From: an uncultured Bacteroidia bacterium
Lineage (GTDB): Bacteria; Bacteroidota; Bacteroidia; Bacteroidales; F082
NCBI GenBank assembly: GCA_902767725.1
Contig: CACXIM010000028.1
Coordinates: forward strand, 1-36,321
Direction: 5' to 3'
DNA: 36,321 nt
Below the pieces are notes generated by a model that was given only the letters and a program-made list of their open reading frames with translations, was not told the DNA's origin and did no database searches. Numbering within the stretch: the first letter of the stretch is position 1; every line of letters starts with the position of its first letter. Below are positions 6,758 to 32,752 of the stretch, piece after piece. Position numbers and translations under genes: made by a program.

Positions 6758-7132
6758 ATGGAGATTAAAGATTTGAGCAAAACCGACTTCAAGGCTGTCG
6801 TCAAGCAAAACAGCAAAGCGGCACGCCAATTCGTAATTGAAAATGGCGTAATGTACGAGCAAGTGACTGTCGACAACATCCAGTATCGTCACAAGTTGCT
6901 TTCTGTACGTCCCCTGAGCAAAGAGGCGCTTGACAGGAAGGTGCAAGCCATTCAGCCAGGCACCCTGCCCATTCGCCTCAAAGAGAGTGCCGAAGGCGAA
7001 GTCTTGGCACTCGTATGTGGTGGCAAGACGGTGCTTTATTACCATCTGCCTATCAACTCGAAAGAGCAGAAAGCCCGTGCCCAACAAATGGTTTATTGTT
7101 ATGCCAAAAGCTTAGTCGCCAAGGCAGCATGA
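6758..7132 (+). CDS. Small unrecognised protein
   Basis: A 124-residue soluble protein starting MEIKDLSKTDFKAVVKQ. It is rich in short beta strands and conserved-looking loops (KLLSVRPLSKEALDRKVQ, LALVCGGKTVLYYHLPINSKEQKARAQQMV). I do not recognise the family. It lies 106 bp after the coiled-coil gene and 69 bp before the next start codon. The gap upstream carries a GGTTGAAAAATC word (6659-6670) that recurs before the AAA+ ATPase and the esterase-LRR genes. Confidence 0.7.
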   Translation: MEIKDLSKTDFKAVVKQNSKAARQFVIENGVMYEQVTVDNIQYRHKLLSVRPLSKEALDRKVQAIQPGTLPIRLKESAEGEVLALVCGGKTVLYYHLPINSKEQKARAQQMVYCYAKSLVAKAA

Positions 7133-8476: not shown

Positions 8477-9249
8477 TGTCAAGTATCATGAAACTGTTGG
8501 AATTGCAAAAGCGAAAATCAGAGGGCATTGATGAAATACACCCTTTGAAGGCACAGCCATTTGAGCGACAGCGTGAAGCGTTGCTTCGGATTGAGCAACA
8601 GGTGAGGGATTTGGTGGGGCTAGACCCCTTATTTCCTCGAAATGTGGAGGATAACGCGATGGATCTGAAGGTGCTTCTGTACAAGCGTTTCTTCCTGTTG
8701 GGCTGGATGCTCAAGGCATCGCCAGAGGAATATGAGCGAATGCGAATTGTTAACCAACTCCTTTTTGACAAAATGGCTCAACTAAAGGAGGCCGTGGGAA
8801 GAACTTGCAGAAGGTTGCATGACATGCCGAAGGACGACTTTGTTGACGACATCGAGGTGTGCGGGAATCTTTTCTATAGCTACAACGATGAACAATCAGT
8901 GTTGCCGATGGAGTGCGATGATGAATATGGTAGTGATTACAAGCTGATGATGTCTGTGAACGATGCGATTCAACACAGAAGAGGCATGTTTGGCAGTAAG
9001 GGAGTGGAGTATTATTACAGATATGACCAGGAAGATACCTTCTATGAACTAGACAATGGCGAATCATGGGGGCATAAATTTGGACCGGCACCGCATTTTG
9101 AGGGGATTTGTGTCTGTCATACCGCAAGTGCTTTCGTCGAACAATTTAAATATCCGATCTTTGACCTACTTCGTATGAACGATTTTTGGACAGAGATTCA
9201 TGTTGTGTTTCAGAACTTTGATTACATCAAAAAACACATGGATTTATGA
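8476..9249 (+). CDS. Unrecognised 257-residue protein, second of the trio
   Basis: The start overlaps the previous stop by one base and its own stop overlaps the next start by four bases (ATGA), so translational coupling is likely. The N-terminal half is helical (KLLELQKRKSEGIDEI, QREALLRIEQQVRDLVGL), with a helical LYKRFFLLGWMLKA segment. The C-terminal half is rich in Asp, Tyr and Phe and probably beta (YYYRYDQEDTFYELDNGESW, FWTEIHVVFQNFDYI). I see no known motif. Its place between the 424-residue protein and a DUF4919-like protein is the only hint of function. Confidence 0.75.
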   Translation: MSSIMKLLELQKRKSEGIDEIHPLKAQPFERQREALLRIEQQVRDLVGLDPLFPRNVEDNAMDLKVLLYKRFFLLGWMLKASPEEYERMRIVNQLLFDKMAQLKEAVGRTCRRLHDMPKDDFVDDIEVCGNLFYSYNDEQSVLPMECDDEYGSDYKLMMSVNDAIQHRRGMFGSKGVEYYYRYDQEDTFYELDNGESWGHKFGPAPHFEGICVCHTASAFVEQFKYPIFDLLRMNDFWTEIHVVFQNFDYIKKHMDL

Positions 9250-9782
9250 ATATCGACTACCCAAGAAAAGTAAACTACTCAGAGTACGAACATTCCTTCA
9301 GTGCTGACTTGCTGAAGGAATTTGAAGAAGGCGGGCGCAAGCTTCGCAATTTTGATACGGAGAAGGTGAGAAGCTTGATCTATGGGTACACCTTTACGGA
9401 GGATTATGCGAAAGGTATTATTCCTGATACCCTAAGCATGGATTACTGGAGGGGAAAAGTTACCAATTCTAATTATTTGAAGCCCAACAAAAACATTGTT
9501 GAAAGGCTCTCAGACCGTTCGCTTAATGAAGTTGTAGGTCAAGGAGGTTTGATAGAGGAAGCTTTAATGAGTACGGGCGATGGCACTATAGAGAATCCGT
9601 ATTGCGTGATTTGTGTGGAACACGAATACGAGATATTGAAGAGCTTAAGTCCAGTTATAACAATTAAAAGGCAGACTTTTCTTCTAGGTTACATCGATTG
9701 CTTCGAGTGTGAAGAGTATGGCGTTGCTCATGTCGAATATTTTGATATCAGCCGTTGGTTTGAGAGAGTCAAGTTGTTTTAA
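9246..9782 (+). CDS. DUF4919-like protein (paralogue 2)
   Basis: A 178-residue paralogue of 4565-5092, sharing MN-DYP-KVNY, NFDTE, LIYGYTFTEDYAKGIIPD, NPYCVICVEHEYE, GYIDCFECEE and SRWFER. Unlike paralogue 1 it has no promoter of its own: its ATG overlaps the preceding stop, so it is the third gene of a coupled trio. Base composition is more A/T-rich than in paralogue 1. DUF4919 proteins have no established function. Two copies in such different contexts suggest recruitment of the domain into an operon, or one copy breaking away. Confidence 0.7.
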   Translation: MNIDYPRKVNYSEYEHSFSADLLKEFEEGGRKLRNFDTEKVRSLIYGYTFTEDYAKGIIPDTLSMDYWRGKVTNSNYLKPNKNIVERLSDRSLNEVVGQGGLIEEALMSTGDGTIENPYCVICVEHEYEILKSLSPVITIKRQTFLLGYIDCFECEEYGVAHVEYFDISRWFERVKLF

Positions 9783-18008: not shown

Positions 18009-18422
18009 ATGAAAGCATTAAAATTTTTAATCATGGCCATAGCCATCATGATGGCTTCGGGCGCAATGGCGCAGACGGTCTACAATAGCAGTGGGTCGAG
18101 CTGTGGTTCGATCAATTCTGATGGCACCGTGTACAGCAAAAGCGGCTCCAGCATCGGTAAAATCAACAGCGATGGCACCGTGTGGAACAAAAGTGGCTCC
18201 AATATCGGCAAGATCGACCGTGAGGGTATCTTTTGGAACAAAAGCGGTTCACGAATCGGTAAGCTCGACAGCGACGGTACGGTACGCAACGCCTCGGGTT
18301 CTAGCATCGGTAAGGTGGAAAGCGACGGTACCGTGCGCAATGGCTCAGGCTCCAGCATCGGTAGGGTACAGGGCGTGCCAAAAGAATGGGTAGCGGCCTA
18401 CTTCTTCTTTTTCTTCGATTAG
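18009..18422 (+). CDS. Secreted 5-fold beta-flower protein (copy 1)
   Basis: A 137-residue protein with a signal peptide (residues 1-21, ...ASGAMA|QTVY). Six copies of a 17-residue unit of the form N-x-SGSSIGKI-x-SDGTV follow, ending in EWVAAYFFFFFD. The repeat pattern and the aromatic end match what is annotated in Bacteroidota as 5-fold beta-flower proteins, in which each repeat forms a blade. Function unknown; probably periplasmic or surface. Copy 1 is more diverged between its own repeats than copy 2. It is followed 24 bp later by copy 2, from the same promoter. Confidence 0.8.
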   Translation: MKALKFLIMAIAIMMASGAMAQTVYNSSGSSCGSINSDGTVYSKSGSSIGKINSDGTVWNKSGSNIGKIDREGIFWNKSGSRIGKLDSDGTVRNASGSSIGKVESDGTVRNGSGSSIGRVQGVPKEWVAAYFFFFFD

Positions 18423-18446
18423 CTTCAACTTTAAACTTACATAACC

Positions 18447-18863
18447 ATGAAAATTTTACGTGTTTTAATTCTGGCTGCCGGCCTCGCGATGGCATCGGGC
18501 GCGATGGCGCAAACCGTCTACAACAGCAGCGGGTCGAGCTGCGGCAAGATCGAGAGTGACGGTACCATCCGCAACAGCAGTGGCTCTAGTGTCGGCCGGT
18601 TCGACAGCGACGGCACCATCCGCAACAGCAGCGGCTCCAGCATTGGCAAGATCGACCGGGACGGCACTATACGCAATAGTTCAGGCTCTAGTATCGGCAG
18701 GCTCGACAGCGATGGCACGGTGCGCAACAGCAGCGGTGCCAGCATTGGCAAAGTCGAAAGCGACGGCACGGTGCGCAACAGCTCAGGATCGTACTCAGGC
18801 AAGGCGTCAGGCATTCCACGCGAATGGGTGGCCGCTTATTTCTTCTTCTTCCCGTTCTACTGA
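18447..18863 (+). CDS. Secreted 5-fold beta-flower protein (copy 2)
   Basis: A 138-residue tandem paralogue of the gene at 18009. Signal peptide 1-21 (...ASGAMA|QTVY), then six 17-residue repeats built on NSSGSSIGKI-x-SDGTVR, ending EWVAAYFFFFPFY. The repeats are nearly uniform and richer in G/C than in copy 1, consistent with recent homogenisation between 51-bp DNA units. The positions that vary are Arg/Lys/Asp after each GSSIG. The gene is followed by a strong terminator hairpin. Confidence 0.8.
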   Translation: MKILRVLILAAGLAMASGAMAQTVYNSSGSSCGKIESDGTIRNSSGSSVGRFDSDGTIRNSSGSSIGKIDRDGTIRNSSGSSIGRLDSDGTVRNSSGASIGKVESDGTVRNSSGSYSGKASGIPREWVAAYFFFFPFY

Positions 18864-26367: not shown

Positions 26368-27885
26368 TTGAAAAAGATTAAAACTGCTTTAATATCAGTA
26401 TTTTATAAAACGGGCATCGACACCATCGTCGACTTGTTGAAGCAAAATGGCGTGCAGATTTACTCCACGGGAGGCACGTACGATTTCATCAAGCCGTTGG
26501 ACCCCTCGGTGAAGACCGTCGAGTCGCTCACGGGCTATCCGTCCATCTTGGGCGGTCGCGTGAAGACCCTCCATCCCAAAGTGTTTGGCGGCATTCTGGG
26601 TCGCACTCAGCTTGAGTCCGACCAGAAGGAAATGCAGGAGTATGACATCCCGCCATTCGACCTCGTCATCGTCGACCTCTATCCTTTCGAGGAAACCGTG
26701 GCCAAGACCGAAGATGCCTCTGCCATTATTGAGAAGATCGACATCGGTGGCATCTCCCTCATTCGCGCCGGCGCGAAGAACTTCAACGATGTACTGATTG
26801 TGCCTTCACAAAAATACTATGGCGAGCTCATCCAGCTGCTCAAAGACCAGCAGGGTGAGACCTCCCTTGACGACCGCCGCCGTTTTGCAGCCTATGCCTT
26901 TGGCGTGAGCTCGCACTACGACAGTGCCATCATGAACTGGTTTACGAAAAATGATGACACCAAGCCGCTGCGCATTACCGAAGAAGAAGGTACTGCTTTG
27001 CGTTATGGCGAAAACCCGCACCAGAAGGGCACCTTCTATGGCGATTTGGATGCGATGTTCGAAAAGCTGCATGGCAAGGAATTGTCGTACAACAACTTGC
27101 TTGACCTCGACGCAGGCCTCAACCTCATCCGTGAGTTCGACGAGCCTACCTTCGCCATCCTCAAGCACAACAATCCCTGTGGCATTGCTTGTCGCCCGAC
27201 TGTGAAAGAAGCCTATCTCGCAGCTTTGGCAGGCGACCCTGTGTCGGCCTTTGGTGGCGTGCTGGTGTGCAACCGCCCCATTGACCTCGAAGCGGCTGAG
27301 GAGATCAACAAGCTCTTCATCGAAGTCATCGTGGCACCCAAGTATGAAGACGGCGTGCTCGACCTGCTCTTCTCGAAGAAAAACCGTGTGGTGCTTCGCC
27401 TCAAGGCCGACCTCTATAGACCCCAAACGGTGAAGACTGCCTTGAATGGCTTCCTCGTGCAAGACCGTGACCTTCACACCGAAACGGCTGAAGATTTCAA
27501 AGTCATTACCACCAAGGCACCTGCTGCCGAAGAAGTGACAGACATGATTTTCGCCAACAAAATTGTGAAGCACAGCCGCTCCAATGCCATCGTCCTTGCC
27601 AAAGGCAAGCAACTCTATGCCTCAGGCATCGGGCAGACCTCGCGTGTGGATGCCCTGCGCCAAGCCATCGAGAAAGCCCGTTCGTTCGACTTCGACCTCA
27701 AAGGTGCCGTCTTGGCTTCCGATGCTTTCTTCCCCTTCAAGGACTGCGTCGAATTGGCCCACGAGGCGGGTATCACTGCCATCGTGCAACCTGGCGGCTC
27801 GGTGCGCGACCAAGAATCCATCGACTGCTGCAACGAACACGGCATCGGCATGGTGTTTACGGGATATAGACATTTTAGACATTAA
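26368..27885 (+). CDS. purH: Bifunctional AICAR transformylase/IMP cyclohydrolase PurH
   Basis: A 505-residue enzyme of the last two steps of IMP synthesis. The N-terminal MGS-like cyclohydrolase domain (residues 1-190) shows [28 protein letters not shown] and DLYPFEETV. The C-terminal transformylase domain shows [14 protein letters not shown], the substrate/catalytic block KHNNPCG, and [10 protein letters not shown]. The start is a TTG: the in-frame stop TAA lies five codons upstream and the first in-frame ATG would remove most of the first domain. It is the first gene of the cluster that continues with mreBCD, after a 91-bp spacer. Confidence 0.96.
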
Positions 27886-27925: not shown

Positions 27926-27976
27926 AAAGGAACAATTAACTGACAACTGAACAACTGACAACTAACAACTTAAAAA

Positions 27977-28999
27977 ATGGGAGCATTTTCATTCCTCAAT
28001 AAAGAAATCGCTATTGACCTTGGTACGGCCAACACGATCATCATATACAACGACAAGGTAGTCGTTGACGAGCCTTCCATCGTGGCCCTGCAGCGCGACA
28101 CGAAGAAAATCATCGCTGTCGGAAAGCGCGCCATGATGATGCACGGCAAGACCCACGAAAACATCAAGACCATCCGCCCGCTGCGCGACGGTGTTATTGC
28201 CGACTTCCAAGCCGCAGAATACATGATGCGCGAGATGATCAAGATGATCAATTTCAAGAACACCTTGTTTCCGCCCAGCCTGAAGATGGTCATCTGCATT
28301 CCTTCGGGTATCACCGAGGTGGAGGAGCGTGCCGTGAAGGACTCGGCAGAACAGGCTGGCGCCAAAGAGGTACGTCTGATTCACGAGCCCATGGCTGCTG
28401 CCATCGGTATCGGCATCGACGTGCTTGAGCCGACAGGTAACATGATTATCGACATCGGTGGCGGTACTTCCGAAATCGCCGTCATTGCCTTGGGTGGTAT
28501 TGTCAACAACAAGTCCATCCGTATTGCTGGTGACGACTTCACTGCCGATATCGAAGAATACATGCGTAAGCAGCACAACATCATCGTAGGTGAGCGCACT
28601 GCCGAACGCATCAAGATTGAGGTCGGTGCCGCTATCCCGCAGCTCGACAATCCGCCCGATGACTATGCCGTGCAAGGCCGTGACATGCTGACGGGTATCC
28701 CGAAGGAAATCCGCGTCAACTATGCCGAGATCGCTCACTGCCTCGACAAGAGCATCATGAAGATTGAGACCGCTGTGTTGAACGCCTTGGAGCAGACCCC
28801 GCCCGAGCTGTCGGCCGATATCTACCGCACGGGTATCTACCTCACCGGTGGTGGTGCTTTGCTGCGTGGCCTCGACAAGCGTCTCAACGCCAAGACCAAG
28901 TTGCCCATCCACGTGGCTGAAGACCCGCTGCGCGCCGTCGCCCGTGGTACCGGCATCGCCCTGAAGAACTTCGACAGATTCACCTTCTTGATCAAATAA
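27977..28999 (+). CDS. mreB: Rod-shape actin homologue MreB
   Basis: A 340-residue actin-like ATPase that organises the elongasome. Phosphate-1 loop IDLGTANT (13-20), conserved IPSG near residue 110, HEPMAAAIG, phosphate-2 loop IDIGGGTSEIAVI (158-170) and the adenosine motif LTGGGALLRGLD are all intact. The length is normal. The gene ends shortly before a repeat-rich leader (about 29000-29075) that separates it from mreC. Confidence 0.97.
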   Translation: MGAFSFLNKEIAIDLGTANTIIIYNDKVVVDEPSIVALQRDTKKIIAVGKRAMMMHGKTHENIKTIRPLRDGVIADFQAAEYMMREMIKMINFKNTLFPPSLKMVICIPSGITEVEERAVKDSAEQAGAKEVRLIHEPMAAAIGIGIDVLEPTGNMIIDIGGGTSEIAVIALGGIVNNKSIRIAGDDFTADIEEYMRKQHNIIVGERTAERIKIEVGAAIPQLDNPPDDYAVQGRDMLTGIPKEIRVNYAEIAHCLDKSIMKIETAVLNALEQTPPELSADIYRTGIYLTGGGALLRGLDKRLNAKTKLPIHVAEDPLRAVARGTGIALKNFDRFTFLIK

Positions 29000-29075
29000 G
29001 GACACGAGACTATTTGACACGAGACACGAGACATTAACTAAATCTCGAGTCTTGCATCTTGAAGTCTTGCGTCAA
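29000..29075. repeat. Mosaic repeat leader between mreB and mreC
   Basis: The segment is made of the words GACACGAGACT, TTGACACGAGACACGAGAC, AATCTCGAGTCTTGCATCTTGAAGTCTTGCGTC. The left half (GAGAC/ACGAGAC) is complementary to CTCGAGTCTTG in the right half. The words overlap with those in the other mosaic leaders (TTGACACGAGACT occurs at 5291-5303). It separates two genes that are normally closely coupled. Confidence 0.5.
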
Positions 29076-29085
29076 TGATAACGAC

Positions 29086-29901
29086 ATGAACAATCTTCGG
29101 CGTTTTATTCTGAAATATCACTTCGTCATCTTGTTCATCCTGCTCGAGGTGATTTCCATCTTACTGCTCGCCAATAGTCAACGCTTTCATCGCAATCGTA
29201 TGGTGAACACCACCAACGATGTCGTGGGCAAGATCTATGAGTGGGGTAGTGAGGTGGGCAACTATTTCCGTCTCAACAACGCCAACAAGCAATTGGCCGA
29301 AGAGAACGCCATGCTCCGCCAACAACTCTCCGTGATGTATGACACCACCACTTGTACCTATGACATCAACAAGGGTGACACCTTATTTAAATACATCCCT
29401 GCACAAGTTGTCAACAACAGCACCAATCAGGTCAACAACTACATCATCATCAACAAAGGTACAGTGGATGGCATTGAGCGTGACATGAGCGTCATTTCCA
29501 CCGATGGCATCGTAGGTGTGGTCACGGATGTCAGTCGCCACTATGCTTCCATCATGAGCTTGCTCCATAGTAAGTCTGTGGTTGGAGTCCGCATCAAAGA
29601 GAGCCAAGAACTCGCCAGCTTGAAGTGGGAGACCGCCAACTATCGCTATGGTATGGTTGAAGACATTCCCACCCACATCGTCTTAAAGCAAGGCGACACC
29701 ATTGTGACCAGTTCCCATTCCAATATCTTTCCAGAAGATTTGATGGTGGGCACTATAGAAGAGTTTTATCCCACTGCCGTTGATGCGTTGAACAAGGCCA
29801 AAATACGTTATGCCACCGACTTCGCTACGTTGAGACATGTGTATGTGATTAGAGATTTGCACAAACCCGAGCTCGATTCGCTCAAAGCCAGACTCCAATG
29901 A
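29086..29901 (+). CDS. mreC: Rod-shape-determining protein MreC
   Basis: A 271-residue protein: N-terminal membrane segment (about residues 8-28, FVILFILLEVISILLL), a coiled coil (about 55-80, NANKQLAEENAMLRQQL), then the beta-rich periplasmic MreC domain (NYIIINKGTVDGIERDMSV, GIVGVVTDVSRHYASIMSLLH). The frame is open back to a TTG at 29059, but MNNLRRFILKYHF at 29086 is the natural start. It forms the elongation complex with MreB and MreD. The gene ends 1 nt before the mreD start. Confidence 0.93.
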   Translation: MNNLRRFILKYHFVILFILLEVISILLLANSQRFHRNRMVNTTNDVVGKIYEWGSEVGNYFRLNNANKQLAEENAMLRQQLSVMYDTTTCTYDINKGDTLFKYIPAQVVNNSTNQVNNYIIINKGTVDGIERDMSVISTDGIVGVVTDVSRHYASIMSLLHSKSVVGVRIKESQELASLKWETANYRYGMVEDIPTHIVLKQGDTIVTSSHSNIFPEDLMVGTIEEFYPTAVDALNKAKIRYATDFATLRHVYVIRDLHKPELDSLKARLQ

Positions 29902-29902
29902 T

Positions 29903-30432
29903 ATGAACAAGACCGTGCTACAAATCATCCGTTTCGTCGTGCTCGTGCTCCTTCAGGTGCTGGTCATCAACCACTGGTCATCAACCATATCCGCCTGGGA
30001 GGGTATGTGCATCCATATATTTATTTGGTTTTCGTCATGCTGTTGCCCTTTAGCACTCCAAAATGGCAATTGTTGGTTTTGGGTTTTGCCATAGGGCTGA
30101 CCGTAGATCTGTTTACGGGTACACCTGGCCTTCACGCTGGGGCCACCACTTTGATGGCGTTTAGTCGTCCGTCCATTATCAAGTTGATTTCGGGCAACCA
30201 GAAATTCGAAAACATCACCGAGCCCAATATCAGTCAGTTGGGCGGACTATGGTTTTTCCGCTACGCGCTGTTTTTGGTGCTCATCCATCATTTTGCGCTG
30301 TTTTTCCTTGAGTCGTTCAGCTTCAGGCTCATCGGACAGGTCTTGCTGCGCATCCTGCTCAGCGTCCCCGTCTCCATCTTCCTCATCATGATGATCATGT
30401 ACATCTTCAAATCGGAAAAGAAAAGAGAATAA
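29903..30432 (+). pseudogene. mreD: mreD, frameshifted by a 14-bp tandem duplication
   Basis: The frame starting at 29903 reads MNKTVLQIIRFVVLVLLQVL-VINH and then changes to nonsense and ends at 30094. The remainder of an MreD protein (HPYIYLVFVMLLPF to YIFKSEKK) is in another frame up to 30432. The cause is visible: the 14-mer CTGGTCATCAACCA stands twice in a row (29960-29973, 29974-29987). Removing one copy gives VINHIRLGGYVHPYIYLVF without a break and a 171-residue protein of normal MreD length with several membrane segments. A GTG at 30007 could start a truncated product. It is either a real lesion, a revertible slippage state or an assembly error. Confidence 0.9.
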
Positions 30433-30452: not shown

Positions 30453-31541
30453 ATGAAAAAAAACTTGTTATTCCTGCTTGCACTCGCGTTTGGCTTGACC
30501 GCCTGTAACGAGAGTGCCAATAGCTTTAAGGTCAATGTCAGTTTGGCCAATGCCAATGCCAAAACCGTTTACTTGCAGAAGTTTGTCAACAACGAGCCTG
30601 TCACCATCGACTCTGCTGTCGTCAACAACGACCAAGCTGTGTTGACAGCGCCCCTCGACGACCCGCAGATTCTTTATGCCCTGAGAGTGAAGGGCAGAAA
30701 AGGCTCGATGCCGTTCTTTGCCGACAACAAGGATGTTGTGTTTGTGGGCGATATGAACAACCCGCAAGATGTAGAAATCATGGCTTCGGAAACCCAAGCC
30801 GAGTTGGATGCCTACAACAAGCAGGTGAGCCAATTCGACACACAAATCTCTGAGCTGTATATCGCGATGCAGCAGGCCTTTAACAACGAAGACTCAATCC
30901 AAATGGACTCGCTCAACAAGGTTGGTACGGCACTGATGGAACAGCAGGACAATTTCCGTGACGAGTACATCAAAGCCCACCCTGAGAGCTTCGTCGCACA
31001 TTACATCCTCGATGGCGTGAAGCAGGACTATCCCGTCGACCAGCTGAAGGAAATGGTGGGTGCTTTCACCACCGAATCCATCTATCGTGACCACCTCAAT
31101 GAATACATCGCCTCACAAGAACGCTTGGAGATTGGTCAGCCATTCATCGATTTCACCTTGACGACCAAGGCCGGCGAGAAAGTCAGTCTTGCCGAGGTCA
31201 TTGCCAAAAACAAGATCACGATGGTCGACTTCTGGGCTTCGTGGTGCGGTCCTTGCCGTCATGAAAACCCCGTTGTGAAAGCCGCTTACGAGAAATTCCA
31301 TGAATTGGGTTTCGATGTCCTCAGTGTCAGTGTCGACCAGGACGAAGCCGCATGGCTGAAAGCCGTTGAGGAAGACGAACTGCCTTGGACGCAGGTGCGC
31401 GACAGCGAAAACAAAGCCAGCCAAGACTATATGATTTATTATATCCCTGCCAATTTCCTCTACGACCAGACTGGCACCATGGTGGCCAAAGGCTTGAGAG
31501 GCGAAGACTTGGAGGCTAAACTGTCTGAACTATTGAAATAA
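30453..31541 (+). CDS. TlpA-like thioredoxin lipoprotein with DUF4369-like N-terminus (CGPC)
   Basis: A 362-residue lipoprotein: signal peptide with lipobox LTAC (Cys18). A DUF4369-like beta domain (about 25-115) is followed by a helical linker (115-220) and a TlpA/AhpC-TSA thioredoxin fold (225-362) with WCGPC (Cys265, Cys268) and the cis-Pro region YYIPANFLYD. It is a periplasmic disulfide reductase/oxidoreductase anchored in a membrane. It starts 20 bp after the broken mreD, where mrdA is usually found. It is paralogous to the next gene. Confidence 0.9.
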   Translation: MKKNLLFLLALAFGLTACNESANSFKVNVSLANANAKTVYLQKFVNNEPVTIDSAVVNNDQAVLTAPLDDPQILYALRVKGRKGSMPFFADNKDVVFVGDMNNPQDVEIMASETQAELDAYNKQVSQFDTQISELYIAMQQAFNNEDSIQMDSLNKVGTALMEQQDNFRDEYIKAHPESFVAHYILDGVKQDYPVDQLKEMVGAFTTESIYRDHLNEYIASQERLEIGQPFIDFTLTTKAGEKVSLAEVIAKNKITMVDFWASWCGPCRHENPVVKAAYEKFHELGFDVLSVSVDQDEAAWLKAVEEDELPWTQVRDSENKASQDYMIYYIPANFLYDQTGTMVAKGLRGEDLEAKLSELLK

Positions 31542-31564
31542 AATGGGGCAAAAGACATTCAGCC

Positions 31565-31661
31565 TTAGTCGTCATAGCGGGCTTGACCCGCTATCTCCTG
31601 AAGAAAAAGGTCTCCCTTCTTTTTCAGGAGATGGCGGATGTTCCTCCGCCATGACGACTAA
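31565..31661. repeat. Four-way-junction element, copy 2 (perfect)
   Basis: The closing stem 31565-31575/31651-31661 is perfect over 11 bp (TTAGTCGTCAT/ATGACGACTAA). Arm 1 AGCGGG/CCCGCT (31576-31581, 31587-31592) has loop CTTGA. Arm 2 has a 10-bp perfect stem ATCTCCTGAA/TTCAGGAGAT (31593-31602, 31623-31632). Arm 3 GGCGGA/TCCGCC (31633-31638, 31645-31650) has loop TGTTCC. The four stems follow each other without an unpaired base. It lies between two paralogous lipoprotein genes. Confidence 0.85.
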
Positions 31662-31705
31662 AGAAAAGGTCATAGTACCGCATAAAATCGATTAACAATA
31701 CACTT

Positions 31706-32752
31706 ATGAAAACAAAGTATTTTCTTTTAGGTTTGGTTTGTGTCGGGCTTTTCGCCTGCACTTCAACCCCTAAGGCCGAGACCTTCAAGGTCAACGTGAA
31801 CCTCGCCAACGCTGATGGAAAGATAGTCTATCTGCAAAAGGACGGTCAAACGCTGGATTCGGCCGTGATTGCCAACTGGGATGCTGTGTTTGAGACTCCA
31901 AAATGTGAAGACAACGAGATGTACAGCATCATGCTTCAGGGCTGGCGCCGCGCCTTCCCGTTTTTCACCGACAATGTGGACGTGACTCTTGAAGGCGACG
32001 CGCAAAATCCCAATGCCATCTTGGTGAAAGGCTCAGAGTCGCAAGACCGACTCAATGCCTTCACTCAGAGTTATAACGAGCTTGAAGAGAAACTGGAGGC
32101 CGACAGCACGATGGCCCAAGCCGATAAGGACGAGGTCCTGAAGATGCAATGCTTCGACTATGTGTGGGAAAACCCCACCGACCCCGTGGCGCATTATGTG
32201 CTTTACCGTTACAAGTGGGCCTTCGGTCCCTGTGAGCTGCGCACGATGATTGACAACATCCATCATGCCGACAGCAACCTCGTTACTGCCAACCTGAAAC
32301 TGGCAGAGGAGTATGTGGAGAAGCAAGAACGCGTGCAAGCCGGCCAGCCCATCATCGACTTCACCCAAAACGACGCTGACGGCAACCCTGTGACGCTTTC
32401 ACAGTTGGCAGAAGGCAAGCTCCTGCTCGTCGACTTCTGGGCTTCGTGGTGCCCCGACTGCCGCAAGGAGAACCCCAACGTGGTGGCAGCCTATCAGAAG
32501 TTCCACGACCAAGGCTTTGACGTGCTTGGCGTGTCGTTCGACACTGAAAAGGAGAAATGGCTCGCTGCCATCGAGAAGGACGGCCTCACGTGGACCCACG
32601 TCTCTGACTTGCAAGGCTGGAGCAATGCTGCTGGTGCTCTTTATGCCATTTCCTTCATCCCGCAGAATGTCCTCATTAAAGACGGCATGATTGTCGCCCG
32701 CAACCTGGAAGGGGAGGAGCTGATGGAGGAAGTTGAACGGCAGTTGAAGTAA
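31706..32752 (+). CDS. TlpA-like thioredoxin lipoprotein with DUF4369-like N-terminus (CPDC)
   Basis: A 348-residue paralogue of the gene at 30453. Lipobox LFAC (Cys18), a DUF4369-like domain (about 25-110), a helical linker (110-210), and a TlpA-type thioredoxin fold with WCPDC (Cys249, Cys252) in place of WCGPC. The cis-Pro region is ISFIPQNVLI. The change in the active-site dipeptide should shift redox potential relative to the paralogue, so the two may have different clients. The pair arose by duplication; the four-way-junction element sits between them. A convergent hairpin follows directly. Confidence 0.9.
   Translation: MKTKYFLLGLVCVGLFACTSTPKAETFKVNVNLANADGKIVYLQKDGQTLDSAVIANWDAVFETPKCEDNEMYSIMLQGWRRAFPFFTDNVDVTLEGDAQNPNAILVKGSESQDRLNAFTQSYNELEEKLEADSTMAQADKDEVLKMQCFDYVWENPTDPVAHYVLYRYKWAFGPCELRTMIDNIHHADSNLVTANLKLAEEYVEKQERVQAGQPIIDFTQNDADGNPVTLSQLAEGKLLLVDFWASWCPDCRKENPNVVAAYQKFHDQGFDVLGVSFDTEKEKWLAAIEKDGLTWTHVSDLQGWSNAAGALYAISFIPQNVLIKDGMIVARNLEGEELMEEVERQLK

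Follow-up and report, generated by a model that had tools for sequence, protein, structure and literature searches.

The window, meaning the whole stretch of DNA analysed here, is one complete contig of 36,321 nucleotides (C28) from a genome of 3,062,197 bases in 153 contigs (79.6% complete, 5.8% contaminated). It carries purH, mreB, mreC and mreD in this order, followed by two genes for TlpA-like lipoproteins. Assignment of the fourth gene to the MreD family (TIGR03426) relies on its position after mreB and mreC and on the resemblance of its tail to the family. It differs from the family in that its frame is interrupted as assembled, and mrdA and rodA are located on a separate contig (G000:C9:15053-18132), where both are present and open. 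With mreB, mreC, mrdA and rodA all open, these genes gave no further sign that the rod-shape system has been lost.

The two TlpA-like genes after mreBCD encode DUF4369 lipoproteins (window 30453-32752), and a second TlpA-like match follows the first in 25 of the 30 sequences having the first. Elsewhere in the window, two adjoining genes (18009-18863) encode small, secreted-looking proteins from 51-bp repeats, with a match to the Pfam family Bflower_2 (5-fold beta-flower). Tandem arrays of 7-8 bp are located between genes at 27938-27970 and 29016-29033; such arrays are common also in other stretches of this genome and in the loci of relatives.

Within mreD, the 14-bp unit CTGGTCATCAACCA occurs twice in tandem, and the two copies are 100% identical. 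The unit length is not divisible by three. Read from its ATG at 29903, the gene runs for 63 codons to a TAG at 30092-30094, with the tail open in a different frame. The preliminary description had reported both the exact duplication at 29960-29987 and the broken frame, and both are present in the sequence as assembled, where we found no continuous full-length mreD frame. The tail frame is open from just past the mreC stop, and a GTG at 30007 would give a protein of 141 amino acids. On its own, the tail matched TIGR03426 shape_MreD with an E-value of 2e-8 and 34.4 bits, just below the cut-off of 34.85. No Pfam family was matched by the tail. The Pfam MreD profile (PF04093) had its only match in this genome at E 4.1 on a different contig, and is of no use on this divergent protein.

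Table 1 Features of the purH-mreBCD locus in the window and of the duplication in mreD.
Feature	Position	Strand	Basis or remark
purH, open in the window	26368..27885	+	broken near codon 21 in the MAGs RUG13948 and RUG358
mreB, open	27977..28999	+	
mreC, open	29086..29901	+	ATG 29086 read from the sequence; the ORF list has TTG 29059
99-bp block identical to RUG13948 (L037, G029) and RGIG9351 (L038)	29875..29973	+	k-1 at k = 100
mreD frame from ATG, 63 codons and TAG stop	29903..30094	+	as assembled
14-bp unit, first copy; end of presumed left contig	29960..29973	+	sequence; end of the 99-bp shared run
14-bp unit, second copy; start of presumed right-hand piece	29974..29987	+	sequence; missing in 29 of 29 aligned same-genus loci
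mreD tail, other frame, MreD-like	29977..30432	+	ORF reading, TIGR03426 match

The nearest named relatives are MAGs from the rumen or other ruminant guts, namely RUG13948 (L037), RGIG9351 from yak (L038) and RUG382 (L039); the genome G029 was taken as RUG13948, the same as L037. The MreD proteins of same-genus relatives that were read for comparison have 170-175 amino acids. A comparison with related genomes, proposed in the preliminary description, was run with the MreD of L003 as query against 99 genomes of the genus, this genome included. MreD was matched in 94 genomes, including all 46 with completeness of 90% or more and contamination of 5% or less; the five genomes with no match are 58-84% complete. 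The comparison turned up no second instance of the break: MreD is unsplit and in one frame in all 93 other matching genomes (a TAA counted inside the match of G035 is the gene's own end) and lies in two pieces in this genome only. The extra 14 bp were likewise found in none of the 29 aligned same-genus loci, each of which has one copy. Judged by these alignments, the duplication is an insertion relative to its kin, and we rejected a chance repeat on this ground.

We also surveyed the window and 43 named loci (44 sequences in all) for split genes, counting matches at an E-value of 1e-5 and 30% identity. Of these sequences, 38 had a PurH match, which was split in two of them (RUG13948 and RUG358); MreB was present in 42 and MreC in 43 with no split, and MreD in 41 with one split, in the window. 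Against L037, L038 and L039, replacement differences occur in 3, 5 and 5 codons of the mreD tail, next to 28, 25 and 22 silent differences, and the dN/dS of the tail is about 0.03-0.06. On these figures, the tail looks constrained. To weigh a chimaera of two species, we followed the nearest relative along the locus; it changes often, with no single switch at the junction between the two copies.

Alignment to the relatives revealed that the sequence to the left of the junction (29973|29974) is an exact run of 99 bp to both RUG13948 and RGIG9351, or 100 bp for RGIG9351 if one more base is counted. Three other frame-breaking indels end runs of the same length. The purH of RUG13948 lacks 7 bp (L037 near 1458), 3.5 kb from the mreD junction, and that of RUG358 lacks 32 bp (L059 near 1492); the two deletions start at about the same base, and the left run is 99 bp for each against the other. 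In the genome studied here, a 43-bp deletion at C9:6758 (L088:6758) breaks a long gene, the two pieces of which match alpha-2-macroglobulin domains. Three relatives have the missing bases, and the left run is 99 bp against G029, or 100 bp with one ambiguous base. These four indels amount to three independent shared blocks, since the purH pair shares one. Their right-hand runs have no fixed length (23, 37, 62 and 25-26 bp). Where the window and four 20-kb stretches could be aligned, two mid-gene frame-breaking indels of more than 2 bp distinguish this genome from its relatives, namely the mreD duplication and C9:6758.

The frequency of such runs was estimated in several ways. For 7,200 positions in the mreD neighbourhood, the longest run to any of 26 relatives was determined; its median was 20 bp, and it reached 99-100 bp at six positions. 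These six, two of them at the junction, fall in three runs, which are the junction's own, one at the purH place and one that stops at 29952, where there is no indel. Runs of 99 bp or more were found at 0 of 686 sampled positions. When 27 sequences were aligned in pairs (351 alignments, 4,256 gaps), left runs had a 99th percentile of 35 bp. Left runs of at least 90 bp occurred at six of these gaps: two belong to the mreD duplication, three to the purH deletions, and one (122 bp) to the closely similar pair L060 and L061. Right runs of at least 90 bp occurred at three gaps (101, 115 and 190 bp); they are unlike the signature and are accounted for at most by close relationship or conservation. 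Comparison of this genome's own sequence with G029 gave 12 exact runs of at least 95 bp, one nested in another, and among these an indel of more than 2 bp terminates the 99- and 100-bp runs only. The runs longer than 100 bp end in substitutions, in one- or two-base shifts or in unclear alignment. A strict co-assembly with G029, with a ceiling of 100 bp on shared runs, fails, as the runs reach 556 bp. The longest (L084:8728-9283) ends in a one-base shift and is possibly another join or a recent transfer. The 99-100-bp block at mreD partly reflects plain conservation, as it is shared also by RGIG9351, a yak MAG of other source.

When a de Bruijn graph is built at k = 100, a contig that stops at a branch has 99 bases in common with the contigs next to it. 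The largest k of idba_ud is 100 by default. While the 99-bp run at the junction was noticed post hoc, the overlap of contig termini alone was predicted beforehand. This genome has 306 contig termini, of which 61 were read: both ends for C1-C20 and C28, and the starts for C21-C27 and C29-C40. Exact overlaps of 99 bp at the very ends were found in three pairs (the start and end of C4, the start of C5 with the end of C20, and the starts of C10 and C16). A fourth overlapping pair shares 58 bp, so that 99 bp is the length in three of the four pairs found. No overlap of this length was seen at either end of the window itself. The three pairs are seen directly, as are the junction positions, and the assembly of this genome therefore has 99-bp contig overlaps. 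According to the accessible parts of the two RUG studies, single samples were assembled with idba_ud with no k option given, which may not be this genome's assembler, and co-assemblies with MEGAHIT at k up to 87 (PMC6785717, PMC5830445). A maxk of 100 is set explicitly in the available text of two papers.

Over 0.44 of the genome's 3.06 Mb (436,321 bases), we searched for exact tandem repeats with units of 8-80 bp and obtained 43. Fifteen have units of at least 10 bp, and every one of these was inspected. The mreD duplication is the one that breaks a gene; each of the other 14 is inside an open frame, has a unit length that is a multiple of three, or is located at a gene edge or between genes. 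With one gene-breaking repeat among 15 in these bases, we rejected the idea that tandem-duplication errors abound in this genome.

We interpret the duplication, with high confidence, as a mis-sized join of two contigs in a de Bruijn-graph assembly at k = 100, because the junction ends a 99-bp run and 99-bp contig-end overlaps occur in the same genome. We infer that the sequenced sample held this species together with a RUG13948-like species, and that the two shared a stretch holding common 100-mers. This stretch would be about 108 bp, that is, the 99 bp plus the 9 bases by which the 23-bp run from the second copy exceeds the unit, a length that fits common 100-mers. At such a stretch the graph would have branched, and the left contig would have stopped at 29973, 99 bases past its last own base (29874). 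The next piece would have opened with the same 14 bases and been placed alongside unmerged, leaving the duplication; at the other three indel places, bases would have been omitted instead of duplicated. Longer shared runs, up to 556 bp, come with no large indels, and therefore not every branch leads to an error. Neither the size of the individual errors nor the sparing of the longer shared runs is explained by the join model. In the organism itself, mreD is most likely an ordinary open gene, as in the relatives, an expectation that we hold firmly. An assembly artefact was one of three options in the preliminary description, and it is strongly favoured by the k-1 signature of the genome's own assembly graph. 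The description's reading of the sequence was correct, and its headline of a broken mreD, taken as a statement on the organism, is not supported: none of the 93 other matching genomes has a split MreD, and the tail looks constrained.

A rival reading is a real 14-bp duplication of very recent date that inactivates mreD in the strain sequenced or in part of its population. The duplication is exact and clean, the remaining locus is open, and the tail of a newly hit gene would still look constrained. We nevertheless regard it as unlikely, as the junction is located exactly at the k-1 point, as with three other indels, MreD is split in none of the 93 other genomes, and the open mreB, mreC, mrdA and rodA indicate no wider decay of the rod-shape set. 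The particular case of a real duplication that turns off MreD, and rod shape with it, in a fraction of a rumen Bacteroidales population is very improbable; if it were true, the k-1 position would be chance, or the assembler would have stumbled on a mixed population.

Slippage between the copies could also turn MreD, and thus rod shape, off and on reversibly, as the preliminary description had considered. The unit length, not being a multiple of three, would suit such a switch, and there is a precedent in the pneumococcal capsule genes, for which the consulted part of PMC4022640 describes phase variation by spontaneous sequence duplication (cap8E, tts and the type 3 locus). Both cases have a short tandem duplication within an open reading frame. 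In mreD, however, there are two copies only, no second state was seen in the kin (the split is seen in 0 of 93 other matching genomes of the genus, and the duplicated state in 0 of 29 aligned loci), the tail looks constrained, and the assembler explains the k-1 position of the junction. We consider a switch extremely improbable. The split gene might instead still be used, with translation of the tail beginning at an internal or near-cognate start codon, or reached through frameshifting, as its open frame from just after the mreC stop and the GTG at 30007 (141 amino acids) would allow. The product would be without the N-terminal hydrophobic stretch present in the aligned relatives, and the arrangement occurs in no relative, so we give this a negligible chance.

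As far as these sequences can tell, the mreD duplication is very probably a product of assembly and not biology. Broken genes in metagenome assemblies prompt stories of gene loss or phase variation, and false pseudogenes from assembly errors are known, as the available text of Cooley and Wright (2024, PMC11017572) describes. The likeness to mreD is a frameshift-broken gene owed to the assembly and not to the organism; the difference is that here a 14-bp duplication is located at a k-1 contig end in a metagenome, whereas there, in the portion consulted, frameshifts and internal stops in general are concerned. Our comparison offers a test that needs no reads: the exact run flanking an indel, measured against relatives, is set against the contig-end overlap of the same genome, and equality at k-1 points to the assembler. 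The purH genes of RUG13948 and RUG358 and the alpha-2-macroglobulin-like gene of this genome carry the same signature, and the two purH breaks are probably the same kind of assembly error. These genes should not be counted as pseudogenes without reads.

Further differences between this genome and its relatives are one- and two-base indels (for example, at L084:9282, L084:17667, L096:7267-7273, L096:8605 and L088:13143) and differences at gene edges. At L088:10675, a 22-bp difference was seen against one relative. A stretch of about 180 bp (L088:14849-15029) recurs on many contigs of G029, G093 and G082 at about 85-91% identity, like a dispersed repeat family, and shorter recurring pieces are located at L088:1941-2014, 6901-6941 and 9214-9309.
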